Both the position numbers and the translations under genes were made by a program. A DNA stretch of 64,000 nucleotides from assembly GCA_030706685.1 (NCBI GenBank), contig JAUZOA010000009.1, forward strand, positions 44,643 to 108,642, given 5' to 3'. Origin of the DNA: Bacteroidota bacterium. GTDB taxonomy: Bacteria; Bacteroidota; Bacteroidia; Chitinophagales; Chitinophagaceae. The notes beneath the pieces are model-generated. The model was not told the DNA's origin. It saw only the letters and a program-made list of their open reading frames with translations, and ran no database searches. Shown piece after piece: positions 24,785-49,602 of the stretch. How positions within the stretch are numbered: position 1 is the stretch's first letter; the number at the start of each line of letters is the position of its first letter.

Positions 24785-25032
24785 AAATATTTCAAGGTTG
24801 CGCCACAAAGTTTAAAAAATAAAAAAAGAACAGGAAAACTTATTATTGGCCGCCCGGTTACTTTGCATACCCGATCCCCGCATTTCCGCCGGGGGCGGGC
24901 GGGCAGATCAGTTGGTACCCTGTAATGAGTTGTGCTCTATTCTGTTTATTATCACCCGTTTCCTGATTAAAATCATCCGCCGGAAAAAGAGTAATCATGA
25001 TGATTGCGGCCGGGGACCCTGATTTTTGTGGC

Positions 25033-26406: not shown

Positions 26407-26525
26407 GCAGTTCTTCCAACGATTCCAAAAAATTTCTTCCTGCATTTGCAGGACTATTACGCAACGGGTTAAAAATTATTCTTTTTATTCTTTGCCCATT
26501 GCGGGATAATAAACCGAAATAACAG

Positions 26526-27077
26526 TTACTTAGAGGAATTACGAATCTTCTTATAGATATAAATAGCGGCCATCAGCAATACAATAAACACTACCAGCCC
26601 GGTCAATCCCCAGAGGAAGCTCATACTTTCTTTTACGGTTGCCAGCATGACAATGGCTACGAGGAAAATAGTGGCCACTTCGTTCCAAAGGCGCAACTGC
26701 TGGGAACTATACCGGAACAAGCCTTTGGATTGATCTTTAAAAATTTTATGCAGGGTAAAATGATAGATATAAAGCAATACTACAAAGATCAATTTTACCA
26801 GCAGCCATCGCCCGGCGGGTTCAAAGATCAGCCTGTCCCAGCCACTTTTCAGCATTACCGTTGTTCCAAAAAAAAGGGTGAGTATAGCCGAAGGCCATGT
26901 TATTCCATACCACAATCTTTTCATCATAATGCCAAACTGCTGCCGCAAGGTCTCTTTAGCTTCACCGGTTTTTTCGCCGGCTTCTGTATTATAAATAAAC
27001 AGCCTTGGCATATAAAACATGCCGGCAAACCAGGTGACAATAAAAATAATGTGAAGCGCCTTTAAATATAGATACAT
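26526..27077 (-). CDS. hemJ: Protoporphyrinogen oxidase HemJ-like membrane protein
   Basis: A 183-residue protein with four to five membrane segments. The N-terminus MYLYLKALHIIFIVTWFAGMFYMPRLF carries the conserved His9 of the HemJ family; KLIFVVLLYIYHFTLHKIF and the central RLWYGITWP are also family features. HemJ oxidises protoporphyrinogen IX to protoporphyrin IX, filling the step for which no hemG or hemY is seen in this cluster. It lies 7 bp after hemH on the same strand, so both last steps of the pathway form an operon divergent from hemA. Confidence 0.9.
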   Translation of the reverse strand: MYLYLKALHIIFIVTWFAGMFYMPRLFIYNTEAGEKTGEAKETLRQQFGIMMKRLWYGITWPSAILTLFFGTTVMLKSGWDRLIFEPAGRWLLVKLIFVVLLYIYHFTLHKIFKDQSKGLFRYSSQQLRLWNEVATIFLVAIVMLATVKESMSFLWGLTGLVVFIVLLMAAIYIYKKIRNSSK

Positions 27078-27084
27078 ACAAGTG

Positions 27085-28131
27085 TTACGTTAGAACCATA
27101 TGCTGATCGCCTTCTGCATATTCTTTGACCCACCCCGCCAATGTACTCACCCATAAAGGATGAACATTAAGGCAGGGGATCATCGTATATTCCTCGCCTC
27201 CCGCCTGCAGAAATGTTTCCTTTCCCCTGATAGCGATTTCTTCCAGTGTTTCCAAACAATCGCTGACAAAGGCCGGGCAGATAATTAATAATTTCCTGAT
27301 ACCTTCTTTGGGCATTTCTTCCAAACGTATATCCGTAAAGGGTTCCAGCCAACCCTTACCCAACCGGGATTGAAAAGAGATGCTGAATTTACCAGTTGGA
27401 ATATTCAAAGCTTTCGTGATCAGTTTTGTTGTCTCAAAACATTGATGGCGGTAACAATAAGCATGCGCTTTTGAATTGACTTCACAACAATCCGCCGTTG
27501 CCAGGCAATGAGAACCCGTAATATCGCTTTTTCTTATATGCCTCCCCGGTACGCCATGATAGCTGAATAGAATATGATCATATTCCTGTTGCAGAAAAGA
27601 AGCAATATTCTCCGCCATGGCATTTATATAATCCTTCTCGTTGTAAAAGGGCTTAATAAACGTGAGTTTAAATGGATACTTTTTTTTCCCATAACATTCT
27701 TTAGCATATTCCACAGCCGTTTCATAAGAAGACATGGCATAATGCGGATAAAGCGGAACAGCAATTACTTCTTCAATACCGGGTTCAAGCCTCATTAAAT
27801 TATCGAAAGCCATGTTCGGGGATGGATTACCATAACGCATGGCTATTTCTACAGGCCCGGTTACCTTTTGCTGTAATGCCGATTGTAACTGTTTGGTAAA
27901 AACAATTAAAGGAGAACCTTCTTTTGTCCAGATAGTCTTATAAGCTTCCGCCGATTTGGGAGCCCTGAACGGAACGATAATTCCGCTTACCAATAATTTC
28001 CGGAAAACATAGGGATAATCAATTACTTTACCATCCATCAGGAATTCATTGAGATAACGCCTTACATCTTTTACTTCCGTTGAATCCGGGGAGCCCAGGT
28101 TCATTAAGACAATTCCCTTTTTTACAGCCAT
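27085..28131 (-). CDS. hemH: Ferrochelatase
   Basis: A 348-residue enzyme that inserts Fe2+ into protoporphyrin IX. Motifs: GIVLMNLGSPDS at the start, YPHYAMSSYETAVEY, and FSYHGVPGRHI containing the catalytic His. An insertion (GSHCLATADCCEVNSKAHAYCYRHQC) holds five cysteines, followed by SFQSRLGKGWLEPFTD. It may coordinate metal, but the spacing alone does not prove a [2Fe-2S] cluster. It is followed at 7 bp by hemJ and is divergent from hemA over 234 bp. Confidence 0.95.
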   Translation of the reverse strand: MAVKKGIVLMNLGSPDSTEVKDVRRYLNEFLMDGKVIDYPYVFRKLLVSGIIVPFRAPKSAEAYKTIWTKEGSPLIVFTKQLQSALQQKVTGPVEIAMRYGNPSPNMAFDNLMRLEPGIEEVIAVPLYPHYAMSSYETAVEYAKECYGKKKYPFKLTFIKPFYNEKDYINAMAENIASFLQQEYDHILFSYHGVPGRHIRKSDITGSHCLATADCCEVNSKAHAYCYRHQCFETTKLITKALNIPTGKFSISFQSRLGKGWLEPFTDIRLEEMPKEGIRKLLIICPAFVSDCLETLEEIAIRGKETFLQAGGEEYTMIPCLNVHPLWVSTLAGWVKEYAEGDQHMVLT

Positions 28132-28148
28132 GTGTTAAGAATAGTTTG

Positions 28149-28156
28149 CAAATGTA
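28149..28156 (-). promoter_or_regulatory. -7 promoter element for hemH-hemJ
   Basis: On the minus strand this reads TACATTTG, matching TAnnTTTG, ending 17 nt before the hemH ATG. No convincing -33 motif. Confidence 0.4.
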
Positions 28157-28331
28157 ACCATTCATCATTTTGTTGCTTTGCTGAGTTAGTCACATTATTG
28201 TCAGAAAGCCCGCTACATCAATATTTATCAATACATTTATTGACTTTGCTCAAATGATTATGTGATGAGAATCAGGGGGTAGAAATGACACTTCAATGAC
28301 CGAGAAATTCGTTTACAAAAAATTGCGCGGC

Positions 28332-28339
28332 TAATTTTG
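28332..28339 (+). promoter_or_regulatory. -7 promoter element for the hemA operon
   Basis: TAATTTTG matches TAnnTTTG, with TTCG about 20 nt upstream as a weak -33. The hemA ATG starts 27 nt after the element, a normal leader length. Confidence 0.42.
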
Positions 28340-28365
28340 TTCCATCATTTTCTTATTTAGTAATA

Positions 28366-29604
28366 ATGCAAAACAGGCACAACGATATCTCTAAATTTTT
28401 TGTTGCAGGGATCAATTACAAAAAATCAGACGCCACTTCAAGGGGCTTATACGCTATCAACCCGGAGCAATATGCCGCCCTCCTGGCTACAGCCCCCGAT
28501 TATGGCTTAACAGAGTTATTTGTTCTGTCTACCTGTAACCGGACTGAAATCTATGGCTTTGCCGAAGAGGCTTCCTTTTTGTGCGAATTGCTTTGCACAC
28601 AAACAGCCGGTGAATTAGCCGCTTTTAAAGAAATGGCTTATGTCAAACAGGGCAACGAAGCCGTAGAGCATTTATTCCATGTGGCCGCCGGTTTAGATTC
28701 ACAGATCCTGGGCGATTATGAAATCGTGGGACAAATAAAACAAGCGGTTAAGTTTTCAAAAGAAAATAATTGCATTGGCGCCTATATGGATCGCCTGGTA
28801 AATGCTGTTCTGCAGTCTTCAAAAGAAATAAAAAACAATACCGGATTAAGCGGTGGTACAGTTTCTGTTTCTTTTGCCGCTGTTCAGTACATTAAAGAAA
28901 CGATTCACAATATCACTGATAAAAAAATATTATTACTCGGCACTGGTAAAATAGGCAAGAGCACCTGCAAGAACCTCGTGGACTATCTCGGTACAAAAAA
29001 TATTACGTTAATCAACCGTACGGAAGAAAAAGCAGCAGAACTGGCGAAGGAACTGGGTTTACAATTTGCTCCCGCCTCCGGGCTCGCCGGACAGATAGAT
29101 GCCGCAGATATTATTTTAGTAGCTACCAATTCAGTCGAACCTGTAATTCTGAAATCACACCTTGAGAACAGTAATCATAAACTAATCATCGATCTTTCTG
29201 TTCCCTACAATGTGGAAGATGAAGCACAGGTTTTATCCAATATCACGTTGATCAATGTTGATGAATTATCAAGAATAAAAGACGAGACTTTACATAAAAG
29301 GGAAGCGGAAGTGCCCAAAGCAAAAGCAATTATTGCCAGCCATATCGCGGGCTTTTTCGAGTGGTACAGTATGCGCCGTTATGTTCCCGTACTTCGTGCT
29401 ATAAAAACAAAACTGGAACAAATCCACACTTGTAATTTATATACCAGTTATTCTTCAAGACATACACTGTCTCCTGTTCAGGAAAATAAAGAGAAAGTTC
29501 AGAAAATCATCAATGGTATGGCAGTAAAAATGCGTGAACAGAATCAGCAGGGCTGCTATTATATTGAAGCCATTAATGAGTACCTTGCTACAGGAACAAA
29601 TTAA
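28366..29604 (+). CDS. hemA: Glutamyl-tRNA reductase
   Basis: A 412-residue enzyme catalysing the first committed step of C5-pathway tetrapyrrole synthesis, reducing Glu-tRNA to glutamate-1-semialdehyde. Catalytic Cys57 lies in VLSTCNRTEIYG. The NADPH-binding domain begins at KKILLLGTGKIGKSTCKNL (about 188-206), and a C-terminal dimerisation helix includes RRYVPVLRAIKTKLEQI. It is the first gene of a plus-strand run (hemA-C-D-E-F-B-L), separated from hemC by 5 bp. Presence of HemA and HemL shows the organism uses the Glu-tRNA route and not ALA synthase. Confidence 0.96.
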   Translation: MQNRHNDISKFFVAGINYKKSDATSRGLYAINPEQYAALLATAPDYGLTELFVLSTCNRTEIYGFAEEASFLCELLCTQTAGELAAFKEMAYVKQGNEAVEHLFHVAAGLDSQILGDYEIVGQIKQAVKFSKENNCIGAYMDRLVNAVLQSSKEIKNNTGLSGGTVSVSFAAVQYIKETIHNITDKKILLLGTGKIGKSTCKNLVDYLGTKNITLINRTEEKAAELAKELGLQFAPASGLAGQIDAADIILVATNSVEPVILKSHLENSNHKLIIDLSVPYNVEDEAQVLSNITLINVDELSRIKDETLHKREAEVPKAKAIIASHIAGFFEWYSMRRYVPVLRAIKTKLEQIHTCNLYTSYSSRHTLSPVQENKEKVQKIINGMAVKMREQNQQGCYYIEAINEYLATGTN

Positions 29605-29609
29605 TCCAA

Positions 29610-30530
29610 ATGGACAAAGTGATCAGGGTTGGGACAAGGGAAAGCCAACTGGCTGTATGGCAGGCTACGCGGATAAAGGAGCTGCTTGGCCAGCAGGGTA
29701 TCGCGGCTGAACTGGCTTATATAAAAAGTGAAGGGGATATTGATCTGCAAACTCCTTTATACGAAATGGGTGTGCAGGGTGTGTTTACAAGGAGCCTGGA
29801 TATGGCTCTTTTAAATAATAAAATTGATATAGCGGTTCACTCGATGAAGGATGTTCCTACGCAACTGGCGAATGGGATCGTGCAGGCAGCGGTTTTGACG
29901 AGAGCTTCGTACAAGGATATTTTTGTTTTCAAAAATGATATCTCTTTTTTGAATGATTTTACATCATCCGCCGTTATTGCTACAAGCAGCATACGCCGTA
30001 AGGCACAATGGCTGAATCGTTACCCGGGTCATACCATTGAAAACCTCCGGGGAAATGTCAATACCCGTTTACGTAAAGTAGATGAGAATAACTGGAACGG
30101 GGCCATCTTTGCCGCCGCAGGATTGGAAAGAATCAACCTTCGCCCGCCAAACAGTATTGAGCTGGACTGGATGTTGCCCGCGCCCGCGCAGGGAGCCATT
30201 ATGGTGGTATGTCGCAAAGACGATGATTTTTGCCTCGAAGCCTGTGCGATACTGAATGATGCAGGTACGGCGCTTTGCACAAAGACAGAAAGAGATTTTT
30301 TGAAAACTTTACTCGGCGGTTGTTCAACACCCATCAGTGCGCTGGCGGAAATAAAAAATGAAATACTTTATTTTAAAGGCAATATTTTATCTACTGATGG
30401 AAAAGAGAAAGCGGAAATCGAAATGACCTGTCCCGTTCATCAAACGGGTATGGGGAGCAGGGCCGCTAACGAATTATTAAATAAGGGCGGGAATCAAATA
30501 GCCGACAGTATTCGCCATGCAGCAAAATAA
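29610..30530 (+). CDS. hemC: Porphobilinogen deaminase (hydroxymethylbilane synthase)
   Basis: A 306-residue enzyme that polymerises four porphobilinogens to hydroxymethylbilane. IRVGTRESQLAVWQA opens the fold. HSMKDVPTQ carries the catalytic Asp81 and the IATSSIRRKAQWL segment binds substrate. Cys238 in LLGGCSTPISAL is the attachment site of the dipyrromethane cofactor. It starts 5 bp after hemA and overlaps hemD by 14 bp, so translation is probably coupled. Confidence 0.96.
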   Translation: MDKVIRVGTRESQLAVWQATRIKELLGQQGIAAELAYIKSEGDIDLQTPLYEMGVQGVFTRSLDMALLNNKIDIAVHSMKDVPTQLANGIVQAAVLTRASYKDIFVFKNDISFLNDFTSSAVIATSSIRRKAQWLNRYPGHTIENLRGNVNTRLRKVDENNWNGAIFAAAGLERINLRPPNSIELDWMLPAPAQGAIMVVCRKDDDFCLEACAILNDAGTALCTKTERDFLKTLLGGCSTPISALAEIKNEILYFKGNILSTDGKEKAEIEMTCPVHQTGMGSRAANELLNKGGNQIADSIRHAAK

Positions 30531-31221
30531 GACGAATATATTATCCACCAGGCCACTGGATGCTTCGCTGGTAAATACAGCAAAGCAACACGGTATTGAC
30601 ATAGATATACTTTCTTTTATTGAAACGGAAGCCATTCAAACTATAGAAATACAGCAGGAGATTGAAAATGCTTTATTACAGTCTGCCACTGTCGTATTCA
30701 CCAGCATGAACGCGGTGGAAGCAGTAGCTGATCAATTGCAGGAGCCGCCCGACTGGAGTATTTATTGTATTGGCACGGCAACCCATAAACTGGTAAAAAA
30801 ATATTTCGGCGAAGAAACAATTGCCGGCACTGCTCCCAACGCAGCCGAATTAGCTGAATTAATTGTTGAAGAAAGCGGCAGTGATGAGGTTATCTTTTTT
30901 TGCGGCGACCAGCGCAGGGACGAATTGCCCGGTATTTTACAAAAAAACAATATTGAAGTAAATGAAATTGTGGTATATCATACAGTAGCCGTACCGCATA
31001 AAATCAAAAAAGAGTACCAGGGTATCCTGTATTTCAGCCCGAGTACGGTTGAAAGTTTTTTCAGGGTCAATAAATTGACTGGCCCTACTTTATTGTTTGC
31101 CATTGGCAATACAACCGCCAGTGAAATAATAAAATACTCTACCAATAAAATTATTATTAGTGATGAACCGGGGAAGGAACATCTGGTAAAAAAAATGATA
31201 AACTACTTTAGTAAGCAGTGA
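30517..31221 (+). CDS. hemD: Uroporphyrinogen-III synthase
   Basis: A 234-residue protein, normal length for this poorly conserved family, which closes and isomerises hydroxymethylbilane to uroporphyrinogen III. Recognisable segments: VVFTSMNAVEAVADQL (about 65-80), YCIGTATHKLVKKYFGE, and the second-lobe IVVYHTV...YFSPSTVESFF. Assignment also rests on position: it overlaps hemC by 14 bp and precedes hemE. A perfect 14-bp hairpin follows its stop codon within 3 nt. Confidence 0.92.
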   Translation: MQQNKTNILSTRPLDASLVNTAKQHGIDIDILSFIETEAIQTIEIQQEIENALLQSATVVFTSMNAVEAVADQLQEPPDWSIYCIGTATHKLVKKYFGEETIAGTAPNAAELAELIVEESGSDEVIFFCGDQRRDELPGILQKNNIEVNEIVVYHTVAVPHKIKKEYQGILYFSPSTVESFFRVNKLTGPTLLFAIGNTTASEIIKYSTNKIIISDEPGKEHLVKKMINYFSKQ

Positions 31222-31223
31222 GC

Positions 31224-31258
31224 GGTCAGTGGTGAGTTTCATTCACTCACCACTGACC
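31224..31258. repeat. Perfect 14-bp hairpin repeat between hemD and hemE
   Basis: GGTCAGTGGTGAGT (31224-31237) pairs with ACTCACCACTGACC (31245-31258), 7-nt loop. Further degenerate CTGAC/CTCACC words continue to about 31290. The same vocabulary recurs between hemE and hemF. No U-run follows, so it is more likely an mRNA-stability or processing structure, or a dispersed repeat, than a terminator. Confidence 0.85.
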
Positions 31259-31303
31259 ATTCACAACTGACTACTGACTTCTCACCGCTGACAACATGAA
31301 ATT

Positions 31304-32356
31304 ATGACAACATTAAAAAATGACTTATTACTCAGGGCTCTTCGAAGGGAAAAAGTAGAACGTCCTCCCGTATGGATGATGCGCCAGGCCGGAAGATACC
31401 TGCCGGATTATTTAAAATTAAAAGAGAAATATGATTTCTTTACCCGTGTACAAACACCGGAACTGGCCTGCGCGATAACGCTGCAGCCCGTTGACCAGGT
31501 AGGGGTAGATGCAGCGATCATCTTTTCAGACATTTTAGTTATTCCACAGGCGATGGGAATGGAAGTATTGATGGAGGAAGGAAAAGGGCCGTCCTTACCG
31601 GAAGTAATACAAACACAAAAAGATATTGATGCATTGCGTACCGATGGCGCGGAAGAAAGTTTAAAATATGTATTCGATGCATTATCCCTTACAAAAAGAG
31701 AATTGAACGGGAAAGTTCCTTTAATCGGTTTCGCCGGCGCGCCATGGACCATTTTATGTTATATGATAGAAGGCAAAGGAAGCAAAACATGGGATAAAGC
31801 CAAACAGTTTGCTTATACAGAGCCCCGGTTGGCACATCGGCTGCTGCAAAAGATCACCGATATCACTGTCCACTATTTAAAAGCGCAGGTAAAAGCCGGC
31901 GCCGATACAGTACAGGTATTCGACAGTTGGGCAGGTTCTTTAAGCCCGGCTGATTTTAAAACATTTGCCCAGCCTTATTTATTCCAGATTGCCGATGCAT
32001 TAAAAGAAACAGCGCCGGTTATTCTATTTCCCAAGGGAAGCTGGTATGCATTAAAAGACCTGGCTGAAAGCAATGCGTCGGGTATTGGTATTGACTGGAC
32101 GATCAGCCCGAAAATGGCCCGTGAGTTTACCGGCAATAAAATAACTTTGCAGGGCAATTTTGATCCCGCGAAATTATTAGCCCCTGTTAGCGAAATAAAA
32201 AAAGCAGTAAAAAAAATGATTGATGACTTTGGTATGCAGAATTACATCGCCAACCTTGGGCATGGTATTACCCCCAATGTGCCGGTTGATCATGCCAAAG
32301 CATTTGTAGAAGCCGTAAAAGAATATGAACCTTCGGTGGTGAGTAGTCAGTGGTGA
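31304..32356 (+). CDS. hemE: Uroporphyrinogen decarboxylase
   Basis: A 350-residue enzyme converting uroporphyrinogen III to coproporphyrinogen III. Substrate-binding motif [17 protein letters not shown] is at about 19-36 and [16 protein letters not shown] (about 67-82) holds the catalytic Asp. [16 protein letters not shown] and [23 protein letters not shown] are conserved. The natural family end is close to VKEY; here the tail EPSVVSSQW is added, and the DNA encoding it belongs to the CTCACC/GGTGAG repeat. The extension is probably tolerated because it lies at the extreme C-terminus. Confidence 0.96.
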
Positions 32357-32410
32357 GTAGTGATCACTCACGACTAACAACTCATCACTCACCATTGATC
32401 ACTCACCACT
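32349..32410. repeat. Inverted repeat at the hemE 3' end and hemE-hemF gap
   Basis: AGTGGTGAGTAGTGATCA (32349-32366) pairs with TGATCACTCACCACT (32396-32410) apart from a 2-nt bulge. The word is shared with the hemD-hemE hairpin. The left arm covers the hemE stop codon. Confidence 0.8.
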
Positions 32411-32416
32411 CACAAC

Positions 32417-33364
32417 ATGACTGGCAAAGACCACTGGACAGAATATATACACGACCTTCAAAACCGCATCTGCTCTGCATTGGAGCAAATTGACGGTAAA
32501 GGAAGATTTGTGGAAGATGCCTGGCAGCGACCCGAAGGCGGCGGGGGTAAAACGAGAGTGATCACGAATGGCCATGTTTTTGAAAAAGGCGGCGTTAATA
32601 CTTCTGTTGTTTACGGCAATGTAACCGATGCGATGCGGTCGCAATTAAAAATTAATGGCGCTGGCTGGTTTGCTGGCGGTTTGAGTTTAGTCATTCATCC
32701 AGTCAACCCGTTCGTACCCACTGTTCATTGTAATTACCGGATGTTTGAATTGTATAACGAAAAAAATGAAATAATTGACCGGTGGTTTGGCGGCGGAACA
32801 GATCTGACGCCTTATTATTTGTTTGAAGAAGATGCCCGGCATTTTCATCAGACGTATAAAAATGCCTGTGATGAATTTGACAAGTCATTCTACCCTGCAT
32901 TCAAAAAAGAATGTGATAATTATTTTGTAAACTGGCATCGTAACGGGGAACGCAGGGGAATTGGCGGAATATTCTACGACTATCAACGACCCGGTGAAAA
33001 ACAGGATATAAATTTCTGGATGAACTTCGGTAAACGTTGTGGTGACGCATTCATTACAGCCTATATACCTATTGTTGAGAAAAGAAAGGATACCCCTTAC
33101 CTGGCTGAACATAAGCACTGGCAGGAAATAAGACGTGGACGTTATGTAGAATTTAACCTCGTTCATGACAGGGGAACCTTGTTTGGATTAAAAACAAACG
33201 GGAGAACAGAAAGCATTTTGATGAGTCTTCCGCCGACCGTAAGGTTTGAATATAATTATCAGCCTCAACCCGGAACTGAAGAAGATAAATTATTGCAGGC
33301 TTGCCTTCATCCGCGGAATTGGCTGGCTGAAACCAGGAAAGAAGAAGGAAAAGAGCGGGTATAA
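32417..33364 (+). CDS. hemF: Oxygen-dependent coproporphyrinogen III oxidase
   Basis: A 315-residue aerobic enzyme for the same step as HemN. Motifs: WQRPEGGGGKTRVITNGHVFEKGGVNTS, HPVNPFVPTVHCNYRMFE with the conserved His, WFGGGTDLTPYY, and EFNLVHDRGTLFGLKTNGRTESILMSLPP near the end. These are near-invariant in HemF. It follows hemE by 60 bp across a repeat and precedes hemB by 37 bp. The presence of both isoenzymes in one locus suggests life across oxygen regimes. Confidence 0.96.
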   Translation: MTGKDHWTEYIHDLQNRICSALEQIDGKGRFVEDAWQRPEGGGGKTRVITNGHVFEKGGVNTSVVYGNVTDAMRSQLKINGAGWFAGGLSLVIHPVNPFVPTVHCNYRMFELYNEKNEIIDRWFGGGTDLTPYYLFEEDARHFHQTYKNACDEFDKSFYPAFKKECDNYFVNWHRNGERRGIGGIFYDYQRPGEKQDINFWMNFGKRCGDAFITAYIPIVEKRKDTPYLAEHKHWQEIRRGRYVEFNLVHDRGTLFGLKTNGRTESILMSLPPTVRFEYNYQPQPGTEEDKLLQACLHPRNWLAETRKEEGKERV

Positions 33365-33401
33365 TGTTGGGTTATTTGTTAAAAATATTTATAACTATTG
33401 T

Positions 33402-34376
33402 ATGTACTTACAGAGACGAAACAGGATAATAAGACAATCACCGGCTATTCGTTCGCTGGTCGCTGAAACAATTCTTACTCCCGGCGATTTTATTGTTCCT
33501 CTTTTTATTATTGAGGGTAAAAATGACGAATCTGAAATCAGTTCCATGCCAGGTTATTACCGCCGCTCGTTAGACTTGACCGTAAAGGAAGTAAAAGAGT
33601 TATGGGCAACAGGATTGAAAAGTGTACTGCTTTTCATAAAATGTAAGGACGAATTAAAAGATAATAAAGGAACGGAGGCCCTCAATCCAAATGGACTGAT
33701 GCAGCGAAGCATTCGCGCCATAAAAGAAGCAGTGCCTGGAATGGTGGTAATGACCGATGTGGCGCTCGACCCGTTTTCTTCCTATGGTCATGATGGTATC
33801 GTGGAGAATAATGAAATTGTAAATGATGCTACGGTGGAAGTATTGGCGGCCATGAGTGTAAGCCATGCGCAGGCAGGCGCCGATTTTGTAGCGCCAAGCG
33901 ATATGATGGATGGCCGTATAGGAGCGATCCGGAAAGCGCTGGAAGAAAATAATTTCAATAAAACAGGCATTATGAGTTACAGCGCCAAGTATGCTTCCTG
34001 CTTTTATGGCCCGTTCAGGGATGCATTGGATAGCGCGCCCGGCTTCGGGGACAAGAAAACTTATCAAATGGATTATTCCAACCGGATTGAAGCGGTAAAG
34101 GAAACTCTAATGGATATTGAAGAAGGCGCAGACATTGTCATGATAAAACCTGCTCTTGCCTACCTTGATATTATCCGGGAAATAAAGAACGTTGTGAATG
34201 TACCCGTTAGTGCTTACAATATCAGCGGAGAGTATGCCATGGTTAAAGCAGCCGCCAAAATGGGGTGGTTGGACGAGGATAAAGCAATTTTGGAAACATT
34301 GACGGCTATTAAGAGAGCCGGGGCAGACCTGATAGCCACTTATTTCGCGAAAGATGCTATACGATTGATCCGATAG
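33402..34376 (+). CDS. hemB: Porphobilinogen synthase (delta-aminolevulinate dehydratase)
   Basis: The track start (33246) runs 52 codons into hemF; ATG 33402 gives the standard 324 residues (MYLQRRNRIIRQSPAIRSLV). It condenses two ALA molecules. Schiff-base lysines lie in GIMSYSAKYASCFYGPFRDA and in ADIVMIKPALAYLD. The metal-site loop reads DVALDPFSSYGHDG, with Asp in place of the Cys residues of zinc-type enzymes, so this should be the Mg2+-type. It sits between hemF and hemL, 25 bp before hemL. Confidence 0.96.
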   Translation: MYLQRRNRIIRQSPAIRSLVAETILTPGDFIVPLFIIEGKNDESEISSMPGYYRRSLDLTVKEVKELWATGLKSVLLFIKCKDELKDNKGTEALNPNGLMQRSIRAIKEAVPGMVVMTDVALDPFSSYGHDGIVENNEIVNDATVEVLAAMSVSHAQAGADFVAPSDMMDGRIGAIRKALEENNFNKTGIMSYSAKYASCFYGPFRDALDSAPGFGDKKTYQMDYSNRIEAVKETLMDIEEGADIVMIKPALAYLDIIREIKNVVNVPVSAYNISGEYAMVKAAAKMGWLDEDKAILETLTAIKRAGADLIATYFAKDAIRLIR

Positions 34377-34401
34377 AATTTCTAACTGATTATATATTAC
34401 T

Positions 34402-35697
34402 ATGACCAGAAATAAAAGTGAGCAATTATTTGAAAGGGCGCAAAGATCAATTCCCGGCGGGGTCAACTCCCCGGTACGGGCATTTAAAAGTGTGGGAGGA
34501 ACACCGGTATTTATGAAAAGCGCGAAAGGCGCTTATTTGTATGATGCCGATGGCAACAAATACATCGACTATATCGCATCCTGGGGCCCGATGATACTTG
34601 GTCATGCTTATGAACCCGTCGTAAAAGCGATACAGGAATATGCCGCTTATTCCACTTCGTTTGGCGCGCCAACGCGGTTAGAAATTGAAATGGCAGAGCT
34701 CATCATCAGCATGGCGCCCAATGTTGATTTAATCAGGATGGTGAGCAGCGGCACTGAAGCCTGCATGAGCGCTATTCGTTTGGCAAGGGGCTATACCGGC
34801 AGAAATAAGATCATCAAATTTGAAGGTCATTACCACGGCCATGCTGATTCTTTTTTAGTAAAAGCAGGAAGTGGCGTAGCGACTTTTAACATACAAACCG
34901 TTCCCGGTATCACGGCCGGTGTAGCCAATGATACACTAACAGCGGCATTTAATGATTTAGATGCGGTAAAAAAATTGGTTGCTCAGTATAAAGGTGAGAT
35001 AGCCGCTATCATTGTGGAACCGGTTGCGGGTAATATGGGTTGCGTTTTACCTCAACCCCATTTCCATGAAGGATTAAGAAAATTGTGTGATGAACATGGT
35101 ATCGTATTCATCTTTGATGAAGTGATGACAGGTTTTCGTTTAGCGCCCGGTGGCGCACAGGAAAAACTAACTATCAAGGCTGACCTGGTTACGTATGGGA
35201 AAGTGATCGGGGGCGGCTTGCCGGTTGGCGCATTTGGCGGAAAAAAAGAAATCATGCAGCATATTGCACCGCTTGGAAATGTATACCAGGCGGGTACCCT
35301 TAGCGGCAATCCTATCGCTATGATTGCAGGTTATACCCTGTTGAAGGAATTAATAAACAATCCCTCTATATACAAAGAACTGGATGAAAAAACCGAATAT
35401 CTCCACAAAGGCCTGGAAAAGGTTTTGCAGGCATGGGGCCAGCCCTTTGTTATTAATCGTTTTGGTTCTATGATAAGTGTTCACTTCAGTGACAAGCCGG
35501 TTATTGATTTTGCAACAGCATCATCGGCCAACAACGAAGTATTCAAAAAATATTTTCACGCCATGCTGAACAGGGGGGTCTACCTCCCTCCTTCTGCTTT
35601 TGAAAGCTGGTTCCTGAATAATGCTTTGACAAAAGAAGATCTTGATAAAACGATCAGCGCTACAAAGGAATCACTGGAAGATATCGCTAAACAGTAA
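34402..35697 (+). CDS. hemL: Glutamate-1-semialdehyde 2,1-aminomutase
   Basis: A 431-residue class-III PLP enzyme that turns glutamate-1-semialdehyde into 5-aminolevulinate. PLP lysine is Lys267 in [32 protein letters not shown] at the N-terminus and [17 protein letters not shown] are diagnostic of HemL as opposed to other aminotransferases. [11 protein letters not shown] holds the PLP-binding Asp. It closes the heme run; a signal-bearing protein of unknown function follows after 135 bp. Confidence 0.96.
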
Positions 35698-42784: not shown

Positions 42785-42809
42785 GCCAGCCCCGTTTCCG
42801 GGGGCTGGC
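42785..42809. terminator. Bidirectional terminator-like hairpin
   Basis: GCCAGCCCC (42785-42793) pairs perfectly with GGGGCTGGC (42801-42809), 7-nt loop. It lies between the convergent NHL-repeat and DUF5777 genes. On the minus strand it is followed by TTTAAAG, a weak U-run; on the plus strand none. Confidence 0.6.
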
Positions 42810-42849: not shown

Positions 42850-43767
42850 TTAAAAAGCCCAAAGTCTCGTAATATTAAAGCCAATCACAAACTGCCCTTT
42901 CGTATAATCATTTTGATTGAAAAAATTATTACTCTGGGGCACAATGCCATAATAATTACCCGCAAAAATCTGGAAGGCATGTGAATCAGTAGTCGTCTCA
43001 AACCCAAATGAAATATTGGGATGAGGATTATTAGTAGGGTGTTGCGTTAGCGGCTGGTCATAGTTTGCAATAATCGACGACTTGTCTGAAATTTTGTACC
43101 TGCCAAGAAAGGCAATAGCAAAATGGCCATTCTTCATCTTTCTTTCTATTTCACCCTTACTGTTCACAAAGGCCTCTACATTATTGAACCAGGAAAAACT
43201 GGGTGCTACCTGCGCGGAGAAGCTCTCAGTTATTTTTCTGGCTACCATTAATTGGTTAAAATAAGAAAACCGGTGCACGCCGTAGGTGAAATTGCTTTTA
43301 TTCCTCGTATCAATAACCATATTGGTAAAATACGAAACACTAACCGGCACTTTGTTATTTTCCGTCTGCCTGATAATGGCGTATTTGGCATTCAGGTCCA
43401 CCTGCATTCTTTCTTTGGTTAACCCCGCGCCAATATTCAGCCGGTTGATAATAACGTAGCTCATGCCAAGACGAATATTAGAAGGCGCAAAAAGTCCAAA
43501 CATATCTTTCGAGCCATTATTAACCGTACCAAATCTATGCTGGATACTCATCTCCAATGAACCTTTCTTGGGTACAATAACAGTCTGGTTATCCATTAAC
43601 CAAACACTTTCGAAAGTGTTTTTTGCCAGCCTGACCGTTTTTATTTCCGGTTCTTCAGCGACGGTAGAATCCTGCGCCAGGAGCTGGTTGGCGCAAATAA
43701 ACAACATTACTGTCGCCAAAGACCTCCCGGTGAAGAATGATAATATTATTTTGGTATATTTTTTCAT
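42850..43767 (-). CDS. DUF5777-type outer-membrane beta-barrel protein
   Basis: A 305-residue protein with signal peptide (to about 32, QLLAQ). It has the DUF5777 pattern: IVPKKGSLEMSIQHRFGTVNNG near 65, then successive amphipathic strands (NIRLGMSYVIINRLNIGAGL, FAIAFLGRYKIS), ending FVIGFNITRLWAF with a C-terminal Phe, suited to barrel insertion. No function is established for the family. It is the last gene of an operon that encodes heme lipoproteins and a quinol-linked membrane complex, 10 bp after a heme lipoprotein gene. In that setting I infer a barrel that brings redox partners to or through the outer membrane. Confidence 0.8.
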   Translation of the reverse strand: MKKYTKIILSFFTGRSLATVMLFICANQLLAQDSTVAEEPEIKTVRLAKNTFESVWLMDNQTVIVPKKGSLEMSIQHRFGTVNNGSKDMFGLFAPSNIRLGMSYVIINRLNIGAGLTKERMQVDLNAKYAIIRQTENNKVPVSVSYFTNMVIDTRNKSNFTYGVHRFSYFNQLMVARKITESFSAQVAPSFSWFNNVEAFVNSKGEIERKMKNGHFAIAFLGRYKISDKSSIIANYDQPLTQHPTNNPHPNISFGFETTTDSHAFQIFAGNYYGIVPQSNNFFNQNDYTKGQFVIGFNITRLWAF

Positions 43768-43777
43768 ACAATTTCTT

Positions 43778-44176
43778 TTAATTGTTATTTGCTCCTTGTT
43801 TTATCCAGGCAAGCACCAATGCGTTATAATCCCTATTCAAACCCCCCGGGGGCATTTGTGTACTTTTTTTACCGGTCAGCCACAGATAGATCACGCTGTT
43901 AACAGGATCAGCAGTATTAAAATAATTTCCGATTTTCAGTGAATTATAGGCATTGGCAGCGCTTAAGTCCGGTACATGGCCGCCGGTTACATGGCACCCG
44001 CTCAAACTGCAACTTTTCGTAAAAATGGGAATAATATCGTTGGAAAAAGTTACAGCTCTTGTTATCTCCGGACCCGTATCAAAGATGACTGTCTTGTCCC
44101 GATAACATCCCGGCAATAAAAATAAAACTGTACTGCTCACCAAAATAATCCCCACTATTGTTTTATTGCGTAACAT
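43778..44176 (-). CDS. Lipoprotein with CX4CH heme-type motif
   Basis: ATG 44176 gives 132 residues with lipobox LLPGC (Cys24); the track start adds 12 residues. The motif CSLSGCH (Cys56, Cys61, His62) has four residues between the cysteines, not two. It otherwise looks like a small cytochrome c: FSNDIIPIFTKSC before the motif and STQMPPGG near residue 106, where Met could be the second axial ligand. The same arrangement occurs in Bacteroidota and planctomycete surface cytochromes, but heme attachment is inferred. It precedes the DUF5777 gene by 10 bp. Confidence 0.75.
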   Translation of the reverse strand: MLRNKTIVGIILVSSTVLFLLPGCYRDKTVIFDTGPEITRAVTFSNDIIPIFTKSCSLSGCHVTGGHVPDLSAANAYNSLKIGNYFNTADPVNSVIYLWLTGKKSTQMPPGGLNRDYNALVLAWIKQGANNN

Positions 44177-44214
44177 GATTGTATAATTTTTAAGTTTGGC
44201 AATAACGGGCATTA

Positions 44215-45564
44215 CTATTGTTTGAATTTCAGCACCAGGTTTGGATTAATACCATGTTGATAGTTGGAACTATTCCAGATGGCTATTCCAAATTGCTGGT
44301 CCTGTAAACCTGTAAAGTCAATATCCTGGTTCAATACATCACCTGTTTTTATTTTACGCTTATATTCAACAACCCAACCACTGCCATTATACACAGCTGC
44401 ACTGGCAATATCTGCTCTTCCGCCAATTAAGGGGACACCGATAAAAGCCGCTATTGATTTTGGCGCTGTCGGGCCTGTTGCTGTAGCGCTTCTTTGATAA
44501 TCTGTACCTACAGTAGGATCTATGGTAGAAGCATCTCCTAAAGTCAAAACACCTGATGAGCTTACCTGGGTTACTTTTTTAGCTCTCCCGCTTACCGTAT
44601 CCGCTACTAATATAAAACCAGTATTTGAACCCGGTATTACCCAGATAGGAACAGCAACGGATGCACCGGTGCCATCTAATTTTAAATTCTGTGAATTACT
44701 AACCTCTCCCTGTGTTGGAGAAACTGTATAATTAGGTCTAAAAGGCCATGTTGCCGATTTAGTTCCGTCCGGAACAATGCCATCCACGTGACGTCCGTTA
44801 GCATTACCACCGGTTAAGTTAGTAATGGCCTGGCCGCCTGCCCAATCCTGGTAATTATCATCCATTTGATTAAGGGATGCATCTTTGCTGATAAAACCTA
44901 AACGACCCCACCACATATCAATTTTTTCGTTGGGCCCATTAGTGTAATGGTTGCCGCTGGCTGAATTGGAAACCATGACCGCCGGGTTTTGCGAATAATC
45001 TAAATAAGGAGTGAAAACATGGCAACTGGCATAACAAGTTTGGGTAAGAAACTTAGGTGTTGACTTATTAATGTTCCAAAGCATGGCAAATTTATCTTCA
45101 CCCCAGCCCTCTCTGGTTAAAACACCACTGCCATCAAATGTCCTGGATGAAGGTTCTTTTTGCCAGCCTGTTTTACCAGCGACATTCAACGCGGGATCAA
45201 AGTACCATGGAGTAACATTGGTGCTTTGAGTAGCATCAGGAATTTCCAGTAAAAAATAAATGTTTTGGTCATCATACATAGACCTTAATGTAGCAGGATA
45301 CTGTTGCCCGATATATCCTGTAAAAAGACCGTTCCCCGCGTCCGGAACAGTTGGGGTGATCTGTAACTTCTGGGCATTGGCCCACGCAGGATCAACCGCC
45401 CCGTCAATGACAGGAGCAGTGGCTGTGAACTGCGAGAACAATTCATTCCCGTTAAGTGCGACAGGCACATCCAATACCTGGTCGGACTTAGTACACTGTG
45501 CCAGGATGAATATGCTTACTATCAAAACTAAAATGACAGTAATACTTAGTTTATATTTTTTCAT
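44215..45564 (-). CDS. Ethylbenzene-dehydrogenase-like (DOMON-type) heme lipoprotein
   Basis: A 449-residue lipoprotein (lipobox ILAQC, Cys24). PVIDGAVDPAWANAQKLQI starts the beta-sandwich seen in heme-binding gamma subunits related to ethylbenzene and DMS dehydrogenases. DDQNIYFLLEIPD and the end QFGIAIWNSSNYQH belong to the same fold. It contains CYASCH (Cys177, Cys181, His182), a CX3CH motif that could hold covalent heme. Between them an insertion with GREGWGEDKFAMLW resembles family members. It should be an outer-membrane-tethered electron carrier of the redox operon. The start is an ATG preceded by an AT-rich leader. Confidence 0.78.
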   Translation of the reverse strand: MKKYKLSITVILVLIVSIFILAQCTKSDQVLDVPVALNGNELFSQFTATAPVIDGAVDPAWANAQKLQITPTVPDAGNGLFTGYIGQQYPATLRSMYDDQNIYFLLEIPDATQSTNVTPWYFDPALNVAGKTGWQKEPSSRTFDGSGVLTREGWGEDKFAMLWNINKSTPKFLTQTCYASCHVFTPYLDYSQNPAVMVSNSASGNHYTNGPNEKIDMWWGRLGFISKDASLNQMDDNYQDWAGGQAITNLTGGNANGRHVDGIVPDGTKSATWPFRPNYTVSPTQGEVSNSQNLKLDGTGASVAVPIWVIPGSNTGFILVADTVSGRAKKVTQVSSSGVLTLGDASTIDPTVGTDYQRSATATGPTAPKSIAAFIGVPLIGGRADIASAAVYNGSGWVVEYKRKIKTGDVLNQDIDFTGLQDQQFGIAIWNSSNYQHGINPNLVLKFKQ

Positions 45565-45650
45565 AAAACATATTTATTAATAAAATTTGTATAAAATATC
45601 AGTTATATACGGCTTCGGTCATAACCAAATCCGCAATACTGCTTTTGTTA

Positions 45651-46082
45651 TTATTTGTTCAATGTCCGTATATAATTTACAACAGACCACCTTTCAGCAT
45701 CTGTAAGCTTTTTATTGAAAGTTGGCATGGGTTTTCTTCCTTCTGTAATTTTCCAGTATAGTTCTCCGTCGGTAGATTTTGCAAATGCGGGCAAAGTAAA
45801 ATCTCCGCAGGCAATGTCTAAATTTCCCGCTTTGGTGCCGTCGCCTTTTCCGCTTTCCCCATGACAGGATTTGCAATTCTTAATGTATAGCTGTTTGCCG
45901 TCCTTTATAGATACCGGGTCAGACTTCACAGGGTTTTTCATATTTATCGCTGATGCAGGAGCCGGCCAGGGTGACCCTTTTGGTTTTGCCTGGGCAAATG
46001 ATACCTGGGATACAAAAAGCATAAAACATACTACTAAAGAAGCTTTCATTACTTGTTTAACTATTAGAGTAATCGCTTTCAT
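45651..46082 (-). CDS. Periplasmic class-I cytochrome c
   Basis: A 143-residue monoheme cytochrome: signal peptide to about residue 31 (QVSFAQ), heme motif CKSCH at Cys70-Cys73-His74, and Met near 118 in GRKPMPTFNKKL as the likely sixth ligand. SDAERWSVVNYIRTL-like ending (LTDAERWSVVNYIRTLNK) is usual in this group. It should shuttle electrons between the membrane complex encoded upstream and the lipoproteins encoded downstream. It is 69 bp from the next gene upstream; a second in-frame ATG at codon 12 would shorten the signal peptide. Confidence 0.9.
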   Translation of the reverse strand: MKAITLIVKQVMKASLVVCFMLFVSQVSFAQAKPKGSPWPAPASAINMKNPVKSDPVSIKDGKQLYIKNCKSCHGESGKGDGTKAGNLDIACGDFTLPAFAKSTDGELYWKITEGRKPMPTFNKKLTDAERWSVVNYIRTLNK

Positions 46083-46151
46083 TTTTTAAATTTTTATGAT
46101 TTATAAATTATTTGTTGACGTTGATTTGATTTTCATTTTAACTATTCATGC

Positions 46152-46721
46152 TTAACTTCTGCTGCCATGTAATTTTTTAAACAACCTGCCTGATTTATTA
46201 ATTCTCACCAGCTGGAAAATGACATAAAATATAGTACCCCAGATGATGACGATAATCGAGGTTGACGCGACGACCAAAAACATCGGGGCTTTTTCTCTTG
46301 AAGCAGAAAGGGAGCGATCACCCCAGTGAAAAGGCTCATTTTTAAGTGCGGCTCCCCATTTGACTTCTGATTGTGTTTCTGCATCTCCATAGGTTTCATC
46401 TTTTTCAATTTTGGCGATAATCACCAACATACCGTTTTTGTCCCCGGGCAAATCCATGGGGACGTCGATATTCGCTTCCCCGTTTTCATCAGTTTCAACA
46501 ACTTTTCCAACAGGCAATAAACTAAATGACCGCTTTACATACAGGTGAACTTCTGTGCCTTTCACCCGCCCGCTATCCGATAGTACTGTGGCTTTGCAGG
46601 TTTTTGTTGAATCGGTTTGTGAAAAGGATAATGTTATGGCGGCTGTCTTCTTTTCCTGCGCCAATAAATTGGACAGGGGCCATAGCGTGATAAAAAGAAG
46701 TATGAATGTTGCAACATTCAT
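46152..46721 (-). CDS. Exported single-pass membrane protein of the redox operon
   Basis: ATG 46721 gives 189 residues starting MNVATFILLFITLWPLS, a signal peptide; an alternative ATG at 46760 adds 13 residues. A beta-rich periplasmic domain (TCKATVLSDSGRVKGTEVHLYV, VVETDENGEANIDVPM) is followed by one membrane segment near the C-terminus (PMFLVVASTSIIVIIWGTIFYVIFQLV). No heme or metal motif is visible. It may be an accessory subunit that docks cytochrome c to the NrfD-type protein. Homology unknown to me. Confidence 0.75.
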   Translation of the reverse strand: MNVATFILLFITLWPLSNLLAQEKKTAAITLSFSQTDSTKTCKATVLSDSGRVKGTEVHLYVKRSFSLLPVGKVVETDENGEANIDVPMDLPGDKNGMLVIIAKIEKDETYGDAETQSEVKWGAALKNEPFHWGDRSLSASREKAPMFLVVASTSIIVIIWGTIFYVIFQLVRINKSGRLFKKLHGSRS

Positions 46722-46764
46722 TTTTAAAGAGAATACGTTATTTGTTCTTTTGCAAGCCATACAA

Positions 46765-48150
46765 TTAACTTTTGGGGTTGTCTAATTTCTCCAATTCAAT
46801 CCCTTCGTTTTCCAGCGTTTCCCAGATTGAAATGATGGGGAAAAATTTTGAAAATAGGGTAATAAGAAGCAGTACCCCTGCAAGTGATCCTGATACAATC
46901 GCTATTTCGATCCATGTAGGAAAGTAGATTGCCCAGTTAGCAGGCACATTCTGAATGGGTGTATAAGGATGCAACATGATGGGAGTAACAATCAGGTATC
47001 GTTTAAACCAGGCTGCTACTACTACCAGCAGGGCAATCGTGGCAAGCGGTACCGGCTTCCTGGCTCTTTTCCAGAGCAGCAATACAGCAGGCAGTGCCAT
47101 ACCAAATATTTGAACGGACCAGTAAAGCGGCGCATAGTGACCCGTAAATAAATCATTCAATAATTTTCCTTCCGCGCCTCTCATTTTATAAGCAGGAACC
47201 AAATATTCATTCAGGTTGAAATAGGCATAGATCAAACACAGAAATACTAGGAGTTTTCCCATGTAATTAAAATGCACGTCTGTTAAATACTTTTGGAGAT
47301 TATATGCTTTCCTGAAAACAAACATGGCTATGATAACACAGGCCGTGCCTGCCTGGAAAGCGCCGGCAACAAAGTAGGGCCCGAAGTTGGTGCTATCCCA
47401 TCCCGGGCGTAAAGTAGTAGCAAACAACCAGGCCGTGACGGTGTGAATGGAAATAGCCAATGGAATAATTAGTATGCAGATAATGGCTATACTTCTTTTC
47501 ATTATTTTCCACTGCTGACGATTTCCATTCCAGCCCAGCGCCAATACCCTGTACATCCATCGTTGCCATTTGGGTTTTTCTGTTAGCTTATCCCGGCATA
47601 AGGCTATACCCGGTAATAAAGGCGTATATAAAAACAAAACGCTTGTTACCAGGTAGGTTGATACTACAATAACATCCCATATAATCGGGGATTGAATACG
47701 GCCGTGAATAAACAAGTTCAAAACCCTGTCGGGCCGCCCCATATCAACTATAATGATTATACCGGCAAAAAGAATAGCCGCCACCGCAATGATTTCCGCG
47801 ATACGGGTGATGGGCCGATACCAGTCAAAATTTGTAAGCCGCAATACCGATGAAATCAGGGCCCCCACCAGGCTAATAGCAACAAAAAAAACGAAATTGG
47901 AAATGTACAGGCCCCAGGAAGCATAATCCCTCATCGCCGTAACTTTCAATCCGTTTCTAAGCTGGATGGAATAGGCATAGCAACCAACGAGAAGAACAAC
48001 AACCAGCAACCCTATCCAAAGTTTTCCCATTAGTCCTGTATGCCGCAAGGGCCGCAATATTGCTTCCCTGATTTCCAGGCGGTACTGCCTTTGTTCATCT
48101 TCCGTTAAAACAGGATGATATTCTGATCCTGCATGTGCATTTTGTAGCAT
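46765..48150 (-). CDS. NrfD/ActC-type polytopic quinol-interacting subunit
   Basis: The track start is TTG; ATG 48150 gives 461 residues. About ten membrane segments, longer than classic NrfD (about 320) and like ActC, TtrC or DsrP proteins. Landmark features include RDYASWGLYISNFVFFVAISLVGALISSVLRL, DMGRPDRVLNLFIHGR and IPLAISIHTVTAWLFATTLRPGWDS. The conserved Gly-Arg-Pro and His in the last two lie near the quinol site in homologues. It pairs with the ferredoxin subunit encoded 14 bp upstream and should exchange electrons between menaquinone and periplasmic carriers. Confidence 0.9.
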   Translation of the reverse strand: MLQNAHAGSEYHPVLTEDEQRQYRLEIREAILRPLRHTGLMGKLWIGLLVVVLLVGCYAYSIQLRNGLKVTAMRDYASWGLYISNFVFFVAISLVGALISSVLRLTNFDWYRPITRIAEIIAVAAILFAGIIIIVDMGRPDRVLNLFIHGRIQSPIIWDVIVVSTYLVTSVLFLYTPLLPGIALCRDKLTEKPKWQRWMYRVLALGWNGNRQQWKIMKRSIAIICILIIPLAISIHTVTAWLFATTLRPGWDSTNFGPYFVAGAFQAGTACVIIAMFVFRKAYNLQKYLTDVHFNYMGKLLVFLCLIYAYFNLNEYLVPAYKMRGAEGKLLNDLFTGHYAPLYWSVQIFGMALPAVLLLWKRARKPVPLATIALLVVVAAWFKRYLIVTPIMLHPYTPIQNVPANWAIYFPTWIEIAIVSGSLAGVLLLITLFSKFFPIISIWETLENEGIELEKLDNPKS

Positions 48151-48164
48151 ACGCGTCAATCGTT

Positions 48165-49148
48165 TTATTCAGTAGTATTATGAGCTACTTTATCGTCTTC
48201 AAATGGAAAGTTTCTTTGGACAGCAGGGAGGTAATACACCCTGGGTTCAGTTCCTAATTCTTCCAGGTAACGGTATCCCGCCCTATCCCTGATCAATTCG
48301 CTTAATCGGAAAGTTTCATCCCCATTTGTTACTGTATCTTCATTGGCGTCTCCGTAAAGCAGGGTTCCATTCGGGCAACTCGTCACACAATCAGGCAATT
48401 TTGATTGTCTTGCCATACTTACACAGAAATCACATTTTGATACGGTTCCCATTTTATCTTGCAGGCTTGTCTCAATTGAATCATTATTATAATTTGTCCT
48501 GGTGGAATCATTACTATCATTATTTCCGGGTGTCGGGCATGATACAACGGCAGCGTCACTTGTCCCCCAGTTCTTTCCCCAATTAAAAACCCTGGCATTA
48601 TAGGGACACGCAGCCATGCAAAACCGGCAACCAATGCAACGGTTATTATCAATTAATACCACCCCATCTTTTCTTTTGAACGTAGCATCCACCGGGCAAA
48701 CCTTAGTACAAGGGGGGTTATCACAATGAAAACAAGGTTGGGCCATCCAATAAGGAGCAGTATCATTGGCATCCTGCATCTTTTTTACTTTTATCCATTC
48801 AACAGGAGGCCGCTTGTGGTGCATTTTCTGGCAACCTTCAATACATTTTCTTGCATTAGCGCAACGGGCCAGGTCAATGACCATTACAAATTTTTTCCCT
48901 TCAATTCCTTCCCTGGATTGAATGTCTGAAATTGTGCTTTCAGCAATATGGTGCTTCATGTGGTTACTGTCCACCTCCACTAATTTCCCATCCGCCGTCA
49001 TCAGTTTTACTTTTTTCCCGGATTCCGGGATGGTATCAGCATGCAGTGTCTTCTGAATACCCAATCCAGCTAGTGTAGCGCCGCCGGCTAACAGACCGAA
49101 CTTCAAAAATTTTCTGCGCTGGGAACCTTCTGTATTTTCTTTCTCCAT
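48165..49148 (-). CDS. Tat-exported four-cluster ferredoxin subunit (DmsB/TtrB/NrfC-like)
   Basis: A 327-residue protein with a twin-arginine signal (SQRRKFLKFGLLAGGATLAG). Cysteine groups: CANARKCIEGC, CFHCDNPPCTKVCPVD, CIGCRFCMAACPYN and CDFC...CVTSCPNG, i.e. four [Fe-S] sites. The first has CX5CX3C spacing and one fewer cysteine than the usual CX2CX2CX3C, so that cluster may be altered or borrow a ligand. An Asn/Asp-rich insertion (NNDSNDSTRTNYNNDS) separates later groups. No molybdopterin catalytic gene adjoins it. It is the first gene of the operon and lies downstream of an FNR-like site. Confidence 0.9.
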   Translation of the reverse strand: MEKENTEGSQRRKFLKFGLLAGGATLAGLGIQKTLHADTIPESGKKVKLMTADGKLVEVDSNHMKHHIAESTISDIQSREGIEGKKFVMVIDLARCANARKCIEGCQKMHHKRPPVEWIKVKKMQDANDTAPYWMAQPCFHCDNPPCTKVCPVDATFKRKDGVVLIDNNRCIGCRFCMAACPYNARVFNWGKNWGTSDAAVVSCPTPGNNDSNDSTRTNYNNDSIETSLQDKMGTVSKCDFCVSMARQSKLPDCVTSCPNGTLLYGDANEDTVTNGDETFRLSELIRDRAGYRYLEELGTEPRVYYLPAVQRNFPFEDDKVAHNTTE

Positions 49149-49302: not shown

Positions 49303-49316
49303 TTGATGCAAATCAT
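49303..49316. promoter_or_regulatory. FNR/CRP-like box upstream of the redox operon
   Basis: TTGATGCAAATCAT matches TTGAT-N4-ATCAA at nine of ten positions. It lies 155 bp upstream of the ferredoxin start, in the 454-bp gap 49149-49602 that also holds the fabF 3' side. Besides this site I see no gene or clear terminator in the gap. Placement is somewhat far from the start codon but possible with a long leader. Confidence 0.45.
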
Positions 49317-49602
49317 TACTCTACGTGACTCTTATCATGTAAGCATTAGACAGACCTCAAGCCTTTAAAAATCAGGAGAAAAATTTCACTTAGTAACAAT
49401 AAGATTAATGTGAGATAGTGGTCAATTTCTATTTCCCGCAAAGCTGGTAATTCCTGTAAAAGCACAGAAAGCTTTGTTGTTTATTATTGGCGGCCGATAA
49501 ATCTCTGCCGTCTTTATATAATATTATGTTCTGAAAATTCGGCCACTATTTATTGCAAAAGCAATGGGTGAGAGCAGATATTTACTGCTATGAAATACCA
49601 GC

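Follow-up and report, generated by a model that had tools for sequence, protein, structure and literature searches.

Here, we describe a seven-gene operon from a Bacteroidota bacterium of the Chitinophagaceae (GCA_030706685.1), found in a stretch of 64,000 nt that we call the window (contig JAUZOA010000009.1, positions 44,643-108,642). The operon looks like an undescribed plug-in respiratory branch, and on balance we lean towards a compact, anaerobically controlled branch that would carry electrons from quinol to heme lipoproteins of the outer membrane. Its seven open reading frames (ORFs), named g1 to g7 in order of transcription, share the minus strand between positions 49148 and 42850, with successive intergenic gaps of 5, 4, 69, 86, 2, and 10 bp and a distance of 454 bp between fabF and g1 (Table 1). 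They form two modules: a core of g1-g4, and an outer module made up of a lipoprotein, g6, and a DUF5777 barrel. An earlier sequence-only reading had placed these seven genes here in this order, and the ORFs, their families, and an identical order in another genome bear it out.

In the route that we propose, menaquinol would be oxidised at the periplasmic side of g2, and its electrons would run through the four Fe-S clusters of g1 to reduce the monoheme cytochrome g4, held at the inner membrane by g3. Homology, together with the oxidase and NarGH loci of relatives, argues strongly for this stretch from quinol through g1 to g4. Conserved linkage and co-occurrence suggest that g4 would then pass electrons to g6, a heme c protein, and to g5, where heme c would be carried on an EB_dh fold. 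Finally, g5 and g6 may reduce an acceptor at the outer membrane, perhaps one that stays outside the cell, with the DUF5777 barrel as membrane anchor, as entry channel for the acceptor, or as both. Outward flow from quinol is favoured by the regulation and by the homologous oxidase and nitrate loci.

Table 1. Genes and candidate control elements of the operon, in coordinates of the window.
Feature	Position	Strand	Family or basis
g1, Tat-exported four-cluster Fe-S protein, 327 aa	48165..49148	(-)	PF13247
g2, NrfD-family quinone-site membrane protein, 461 aa from ATG	46765..48150	(-)	PF03916, 1.9e-32
g3, signal peptide, Ig-like periplasmic domain, C-terminal transmembrane helix	46152..46760	(-)	
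g4, periplasmic monoheme cytochrome c	45651..46082	(-)	PF13442/PF00034, CxxCH
g5, EB_dh lipoprotein with CX3CH heme motif	44215..45564	(-)	PF09459, 3.4e-21
g6, small monoheme CX4CH lipoprotein	43778..44212	(-)	CX2-4CH and near-invariant Met-Pro
g7, DUF5777 outer-membrane beta-barrel	42850..43767	(-)	PF19089, 2e-76
Candidate FNR/CRP-type box 1, TGATAAGAGTCA on coding strand	49326..49337	(-)	pattern TGAY-N4-RTCA
Candidate FNR/CRP-type box 2, TGATTTGCATCA, 22 bp from box 1	49304..49315	(-)	pattern TGAY-N4-RTCA
Terminator-like hairpin, GCCAGCCCC...GGGGCTGGC, then CTTTAAA; operon end	42785..42809	(-)	read from sequence

We compared 93 non-redundant related loci, most of which were found by scanning bacterial genomes with an NrfD profile built from 19 sequences. 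The core g1-g2-g3-g4 is present in nearly all of them, and the outer module adjoins it in 61 of the 93, its order of lipoprotein, g6, and DUF5777 recurring from locus to locus. The full seven-gene order, for which the sequence-only reading had proposed a search in other Bacteroidota, is found again in L061, an uncultured Bacteroidetes metagenome-assembled genome (MAG) whose NrfD protein is 85% identical; because this string is shared and most related loci keep the four core genes together, the order is not due to chance. The slot preceding g6 is exchangeable. Among 72 DUF5777 genes, 37 are preceded by EB_dh and then g6, 15 by a YceI lipoprotein and then g6, and 4 by a diheme lipoprotein (two CX4CH motifs) and then g6. 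The genome of the window itself also has another, related operon of the diheme type (C113, L039; NrfD 37% identical).

The two modules are also associated across genomes. Within a sample of 199 Chitinophagales genomes (the order was named from L108, that is, G010), EB_dh occurs in 12 of the 15 that bear the core vs 2 of the 184 that do not (Fisher P=7e-15), and since EB_dh and core lie apart in genomes G048 and G131, this association exceeds mere linkage.

For the core, the closest solved relatives belong to alternative complex III (ACIII). Among solved structures, the g2 profile matches ACIII subunits only at E<1e-5, with ActC (6f0k_C, 3e-81) as the best. The quinone-site residues of NrfD-type proteins have been named by Calisto and Pereira (2021; PMC8076601); in the alignment to 6f0k_C, g2 retains Ser164 and Asp169 of Rhodothermus ActC (as S154 and D159), has D136 in place of His139 (Asp being the residue of other NrfD proteins there), and Leu in place of Asp253. 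In a quick tree without bootstrap, of which one very long row (L075_7031) is to be ignored, the g2-type proteins form a group apart from ActC, its sister clade (SH-aLRT 99). The outer-module context is widespread in this tree, and the oxidase and NarGH contexts are limited to one nested group.

The Fe-S protein g1, with ActB (its Fe-S domain), NrfC-type, and ArrB-type proteins as relatives in the PDB, has the twin-arginine translocation (Tat) motif in 97 of 98 homologs. It retains 15 cluster cysteines; the second Cys of motif I is absent from g1 and its aligned homologs, whereas ActB is short of one in motif III. Because of this missing cysteine, one g1 cluster is probably [3Fe-4S], and a different cluster than in ActB. 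No relatives of g3 were found in Pfam, NCBIfam, or the PDB, and in the oxidase/NarGH clade it is fused to cytochrome c (e.g., L098, L107, and L140), which argues that g3 acts as the inner-membrane anchor for g4. The CxxCH motif of g4 is present in 83/83 homologs. Small Tat-signal ORFs (70-93 aa, motif MLTxDGKLVEVD) stand directly upstream of g1 in about 28 loci (L042:6354-6605, L048:6846-7094, L051:10966-11235, and some 25 more); they are homologs of the N-terminal part of g1, and the window has no separate ORF of this kind.

What adjoins the core in relatives is informative as to its function. Genes for cbb3 and/or caa3 oxidases are adjacent in 11 loci, from Draconibacterium, Marinifilum, Ancylomarina, Maribellus, and relatives, and NarGH-type nitrate reductase genes in three (L102, L105, and L125). 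Culturable carriers include Draconibacterium orientale and Marinifilum flexuosum for the oxidase form, and Niastella vici and Pinibacter aurantiacus for the core with an outer module. In the three NarGH-type loci, a diheme cytochrome c and then NarG come after the core, with NarH in reach in L105 and L125; all three belong to one derived clade and are without the DUF5777 module. No NarI was seen in these NarG loci, which possibly encode a cytochrome-fed nitrate reductase in Bacteroidota. The sequence-only reading had noted the lack of a molybdopterin catalytic subunit and had considered that homologous loci might always include a dedicated one: there is none in the operon, and a search of all 93 homologous loci found NarG-like ORFs in just these three. 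On this search, a hidden Mo subunit was rejected as partner outside the NarGH clade.

ACIII was detected in 24 of the 30 core-bearing genomes tested, and the genome of the window also encodes it (C155). All eight genomes examined for COX1 oxidases have them, including the six without ACIII; bc1-type cytochrome b went undetected in three of these six (L086, L098, and L135), which are draft MAGs, so that absence is suggestive only. Given the oxidase and NarGH contexts, and genomes that have core and COX1 with neither ACIII nor bc1 detected, the core is most simply read as a stand-alone quinol:cytochrome c oxidoreductase whose acceptors can be exchanged.

Turning to the outer module, a single CX2-4CH motif is found in each of g4, g5, and g6. 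The possibility, also raised in the sequence-only reading, that the lipoproteins carry no heme is countered by this motif in 37/37 EB_dh-type (g5) and 67/68 g6-type proteins; in addition, the Met-Pro of g6 is typical of heme-c ligation. That reading had called g5 a DOMON-type heme lipoprotein. The heme lipoprotein stands, and the family is more exactly EB_dh (76.8 bits vs a curated cut-off of 33.3), with nitrite oxidoreductase NxrC as the best PDB match (6e-11) and a fold that matches NxrC and EbdC; the CX3CH added on this domain suggests heme c. No Pfam family covers g6, whose profile matches FoxE (1.5e-7) and hydrazine synthase alpha. The lipoboxes are AQC/TKSDQ in g5 and LPGC/YRDKT in g6, the slash marking the cleavage site.

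The barrel scores 256.9 bits against DUF5777 (cut-off 23.1). Its AlphaFold model is a 12-stranded barrel (pLDDT 90.7), for which the nearest Foldseek matches are NanC, COG4313, NalP, and KdgM, NanC and KdgM being small-molecule channels. As modelled, this barrel has too little room for a cytochrome, and we rejected DUF5777 as a wide conduit barrel on the 12-strand model. Because the operon also lacks a multiheme cytochrome, hemes are unlikely to form a wire through the barrel. No papers on DUF5777 turned up in our literature search, which had most subscription journals outside its coverage. A DUF5777 gene elsewhere in the same genome (L040:4414-9681, C178) is accompanied by YceI, a tRNA_anti-like protein, and PSCyt1/CBB3 cytochromes, without the NrfD core.

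Whether the lipoproteins reach the cell surface bears on the acceptor. A signal with K/R at +3 and D/E at +4/+5 is present in 72% of g5-type, 46% of g6-type, and 47% of YceI proteins; among the remaining lipoproteins of these loci the figure is 24%. The surface-export optimum tested in Capnocytophaga is C-X-K-(D/E)2-X (PMC5080379). Surface exposure of g5 and g6 in the window is thus possible.

Control of the operon appears to be of the FNR type. The two boxes upstream of g1 are the only pair in the window at 22 bp spacing, and such a pair arose 0 times in 5000 shuffles of the gap before g1. Across homologous loci, operon intergenic DNA holds 94 boxes vs 3.1 expected from shuffles, with 22 bp as the commonest spacing and a density 2.6 times higher than in control intergenic DNA; the pattern points to a regulon-type site. 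Several homologs have an FNR-family regulator nearby whose N-terminus carries clustered cysteines, and the genome of the window has an FNR-like one (L146, 42% identical, N-terminal C-x4-C-x2-C-x2-C). Similarly, the same box stands 22 bp before hemN (TIGR00538, oxygen-independent coproporphyrinogen oxidase) in the window. Because of the tandem boxes, the cysteine-bearing regulators, and the box before hemN, it is likely that the operon is used without oxygen.

How, then, does the operon compare with known systems? With ACIII (ActABCDEF) it shares the NrfD-type quinol site, a multi-cluster Fe-S protein (g1 corresponds to the C-terminal domain of ActB), a monoheme cytochrome c, the lack of a Mo cofactor, and, in some relatives, adjacent oxidases. 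Unlike ACIII, its g1 is the Fe-S part only, with no Mo-like domain, its core is far smaller, and it has no genes for the pentaheme ActA or other multiheme proteins, ActD, or ActF (the second NrfD); g3 is new, and the putative acceptor module is at the outer membrane. Other NrfD complexes such as DsrMKJOP, Qrc, and Psr likewise have an FeS and NrfD membrane module, but the operon contains no DsrMKJ, Qrc multiheme, or Mo subunit, the last of these also setting it apart from the Mo-dependent NrfD enzymes (Psr, Ttr, Phs, and NarGH type). A DsrOP identity was rejected, as g1 scores 163.8 bits against the DsrO model (cut-off 200) and g2 137.7 bits against DsrP (cut-off 350), both under the NCBI equivalog cut-offs. 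The complex types listed by Calisto and Pereira (PMC8076601) do not include such a core. Similarly, we found no published account of an NrfD core with EB_dh, porin-cytochrome, YceI, or ACIII in Bacteroidota in a search that had most subscription journals outside its coverage.

For the outer module, the comparison is with other families. The fold of g5 is that of the EB_dh subunits of nitrite oxidoreductase and ethylbenzene dehydrogenase (Mo type II; NxrC and EbdC), but here there is neither a Mo alpha nor a dedicated beta subunit, and g5 is a lipoprotein of outer-membrane type that carries CX3CH in addition. Cyc2, a fused monoheme cytochrome-porin, also pairs a single heme c domain with a modest barrel; in the operon these are two separate proteins, g6 being a lipoprotein, with an EB_dh or YceI partner besides. 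No relation between DUF5777 and Cyc2 was detected, the size of the Cyc2 barrel being outside this comparison. MtrCAB and other porin-cytochrome systems resemble the operon in their quinol-linked input, periplasmic cytochrome, and outer-membrane barrel with heme proteins, and families and homology support the layout given in the sequence-only reading, in which a quinone-linked core with cytochrome c leads on to heme lipoproteins and a barrel of the outer membrane. The closer likeness to MtrCAB is not supported. The families are unrelated, the lipoproteins of the operon are monoheme or few-heme, no multiheme cytochrome is encoded in it, and the DUF5777 barrel, with its 12 predicted strands, is NanC/KdgM-like. 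The MtrB barrel has 26 strands.

Several of our own observations weigh against a dedicated, anaerobically controlled branch to the outer membrane. DUF5777 is found in 174/199 Chitinophagales genomes, mostly without the core, so that the barrel is not dedicated to the core and was rejected as a marker of the system. Boxes also abound in the control intergenic DNA nearby (62 vs 3.2 expected), and they are therefore not operon-specific. The g5 (CTKSDQ) and g6 (CYRDKT) proteins of the window fit the export signal only in part, and the draft state of the genomes without ACIII and bc1 tempers the stand-alone role of the core. The near-universal DUF5777 would suit an arrangement in which core and outer module have separate functions under one regulator, the core being a second quinol:cytochrome c reductase only and the DUF5777 module serving lipids, metals, or signalling. 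Indeed, the core has no outer module in reach in 16/93 loci, and another DUF5777 copy of the same genome (L041) adjoins peroxiredoxin-like and peptidase genes without cytochromes. We nevertheless regard such a division as unlikely, given the tight linkage in 61/93 loci, an EB_dh-core co-occurrence that persists when the two are unlinked, and g5 and g6 proteins that nearly all carry heme motifs.

Better placed, if still doubtful, is a true trans-envelope conduit in which g5, g6, and DUF5777 would deliver electrons to an extracellular solid or humic acceptor; this is the outward form of the exchange with an extracellular acceptor or donor that the sequence-only reading had inferred. The frequent export-like signal of g5-type proteins, near the Capnocytophaga optimum, speaks for it, as do a hexaheme lipoprotein directly 5' of a second DUF5777 gene in L127 (the sole hexaheme case among the loci) and the many homologs from lake, peat, and groundwater MAGs, although these were counted without a background. 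It has to contend with a predicted barrel that cannot house a cytochrome, an operon with no multiheme protein, and the partial signals in the window. The reverse direction, in which g5 and g6 would oxidise an external or periplasmic donor such as Fe(II) and feed g4 and then oxidases or the quinone pool, seems to us quite improbable. FoxE, the best solved relative of g6, is an iron oxidoreductase, and g5 shares its fold with NxrC and EbdC, which belong to oxidising enzymes; however, small c-type domains are poor guides to direction, and the FNR-type control, the NarGH and cbb3 linkage of homologous cores, and the ACIII-like core all indicate quinol oxidation.

Few kinds of quinol:cytochrome c oxidoreductase are known, namely bc1/b6f and ACIII. 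If the branch from quinol to outer-membrane heme lipoproteins is real, a compact NrfD-based oxidoreductase that plugs into oxygen reductases, a nitrate reductase, or an outer-membrane heme module would illustrate the re-use of such complexes, and an anaerobic respiratory route would open for many Chitinophagales of stratified lakes, peat, and groundwater, in which anoxic metabolism still lacks an explanation. DUF5777 would gain a testable role as a partner of heme lipoproteins. More tentatively still, Bacteroidota may have an outer-membrane electron exit of their own, in which lipoproteins with a single or a few hemes and exchangeable domains (EB_dh, YceI, or diheme) sit on a small DUF5777 barrel and are fed, under anoxia, by a compact ACIII-like quinol:cytochrome c oxidoreductase. 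We consider this rather unlikely; if true, it would add a third design to those of the multiheme porin-cytochrome complexes and of Cyc2.

Some smaller points can be added on gene boundaries and neighbours. The g2 start is probably the ATG at 48150 and not the TTG at 48159 (464 aa from TTG), and for g6 the ATG at 44176 is the more likely start. The hairpin at 42809-42785 is GC-rich and lies 3' of the g7 stop. The hexaheme lipoprotein of L127 (14303-16338) has a collagen-like (GxxGPxGP) N-terminus. In L047, L049, L057, and L108, genes for MMPL/RND-type exporters lie in or adjoin the operon, and in L054, L056, and L137 tandem pairs of FNR-like regulators with 3-4 N-terminal cysteines stand directly upstream of the core. 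Elsewhere in the window (24997-35697) there is a near-complete heme biosynthesis cluster, comprising hemN, a hemJ-like gene, and hemH, then hemA, C, D, E, F, B, and L, with a further FNR-type box between hemH and hemA.

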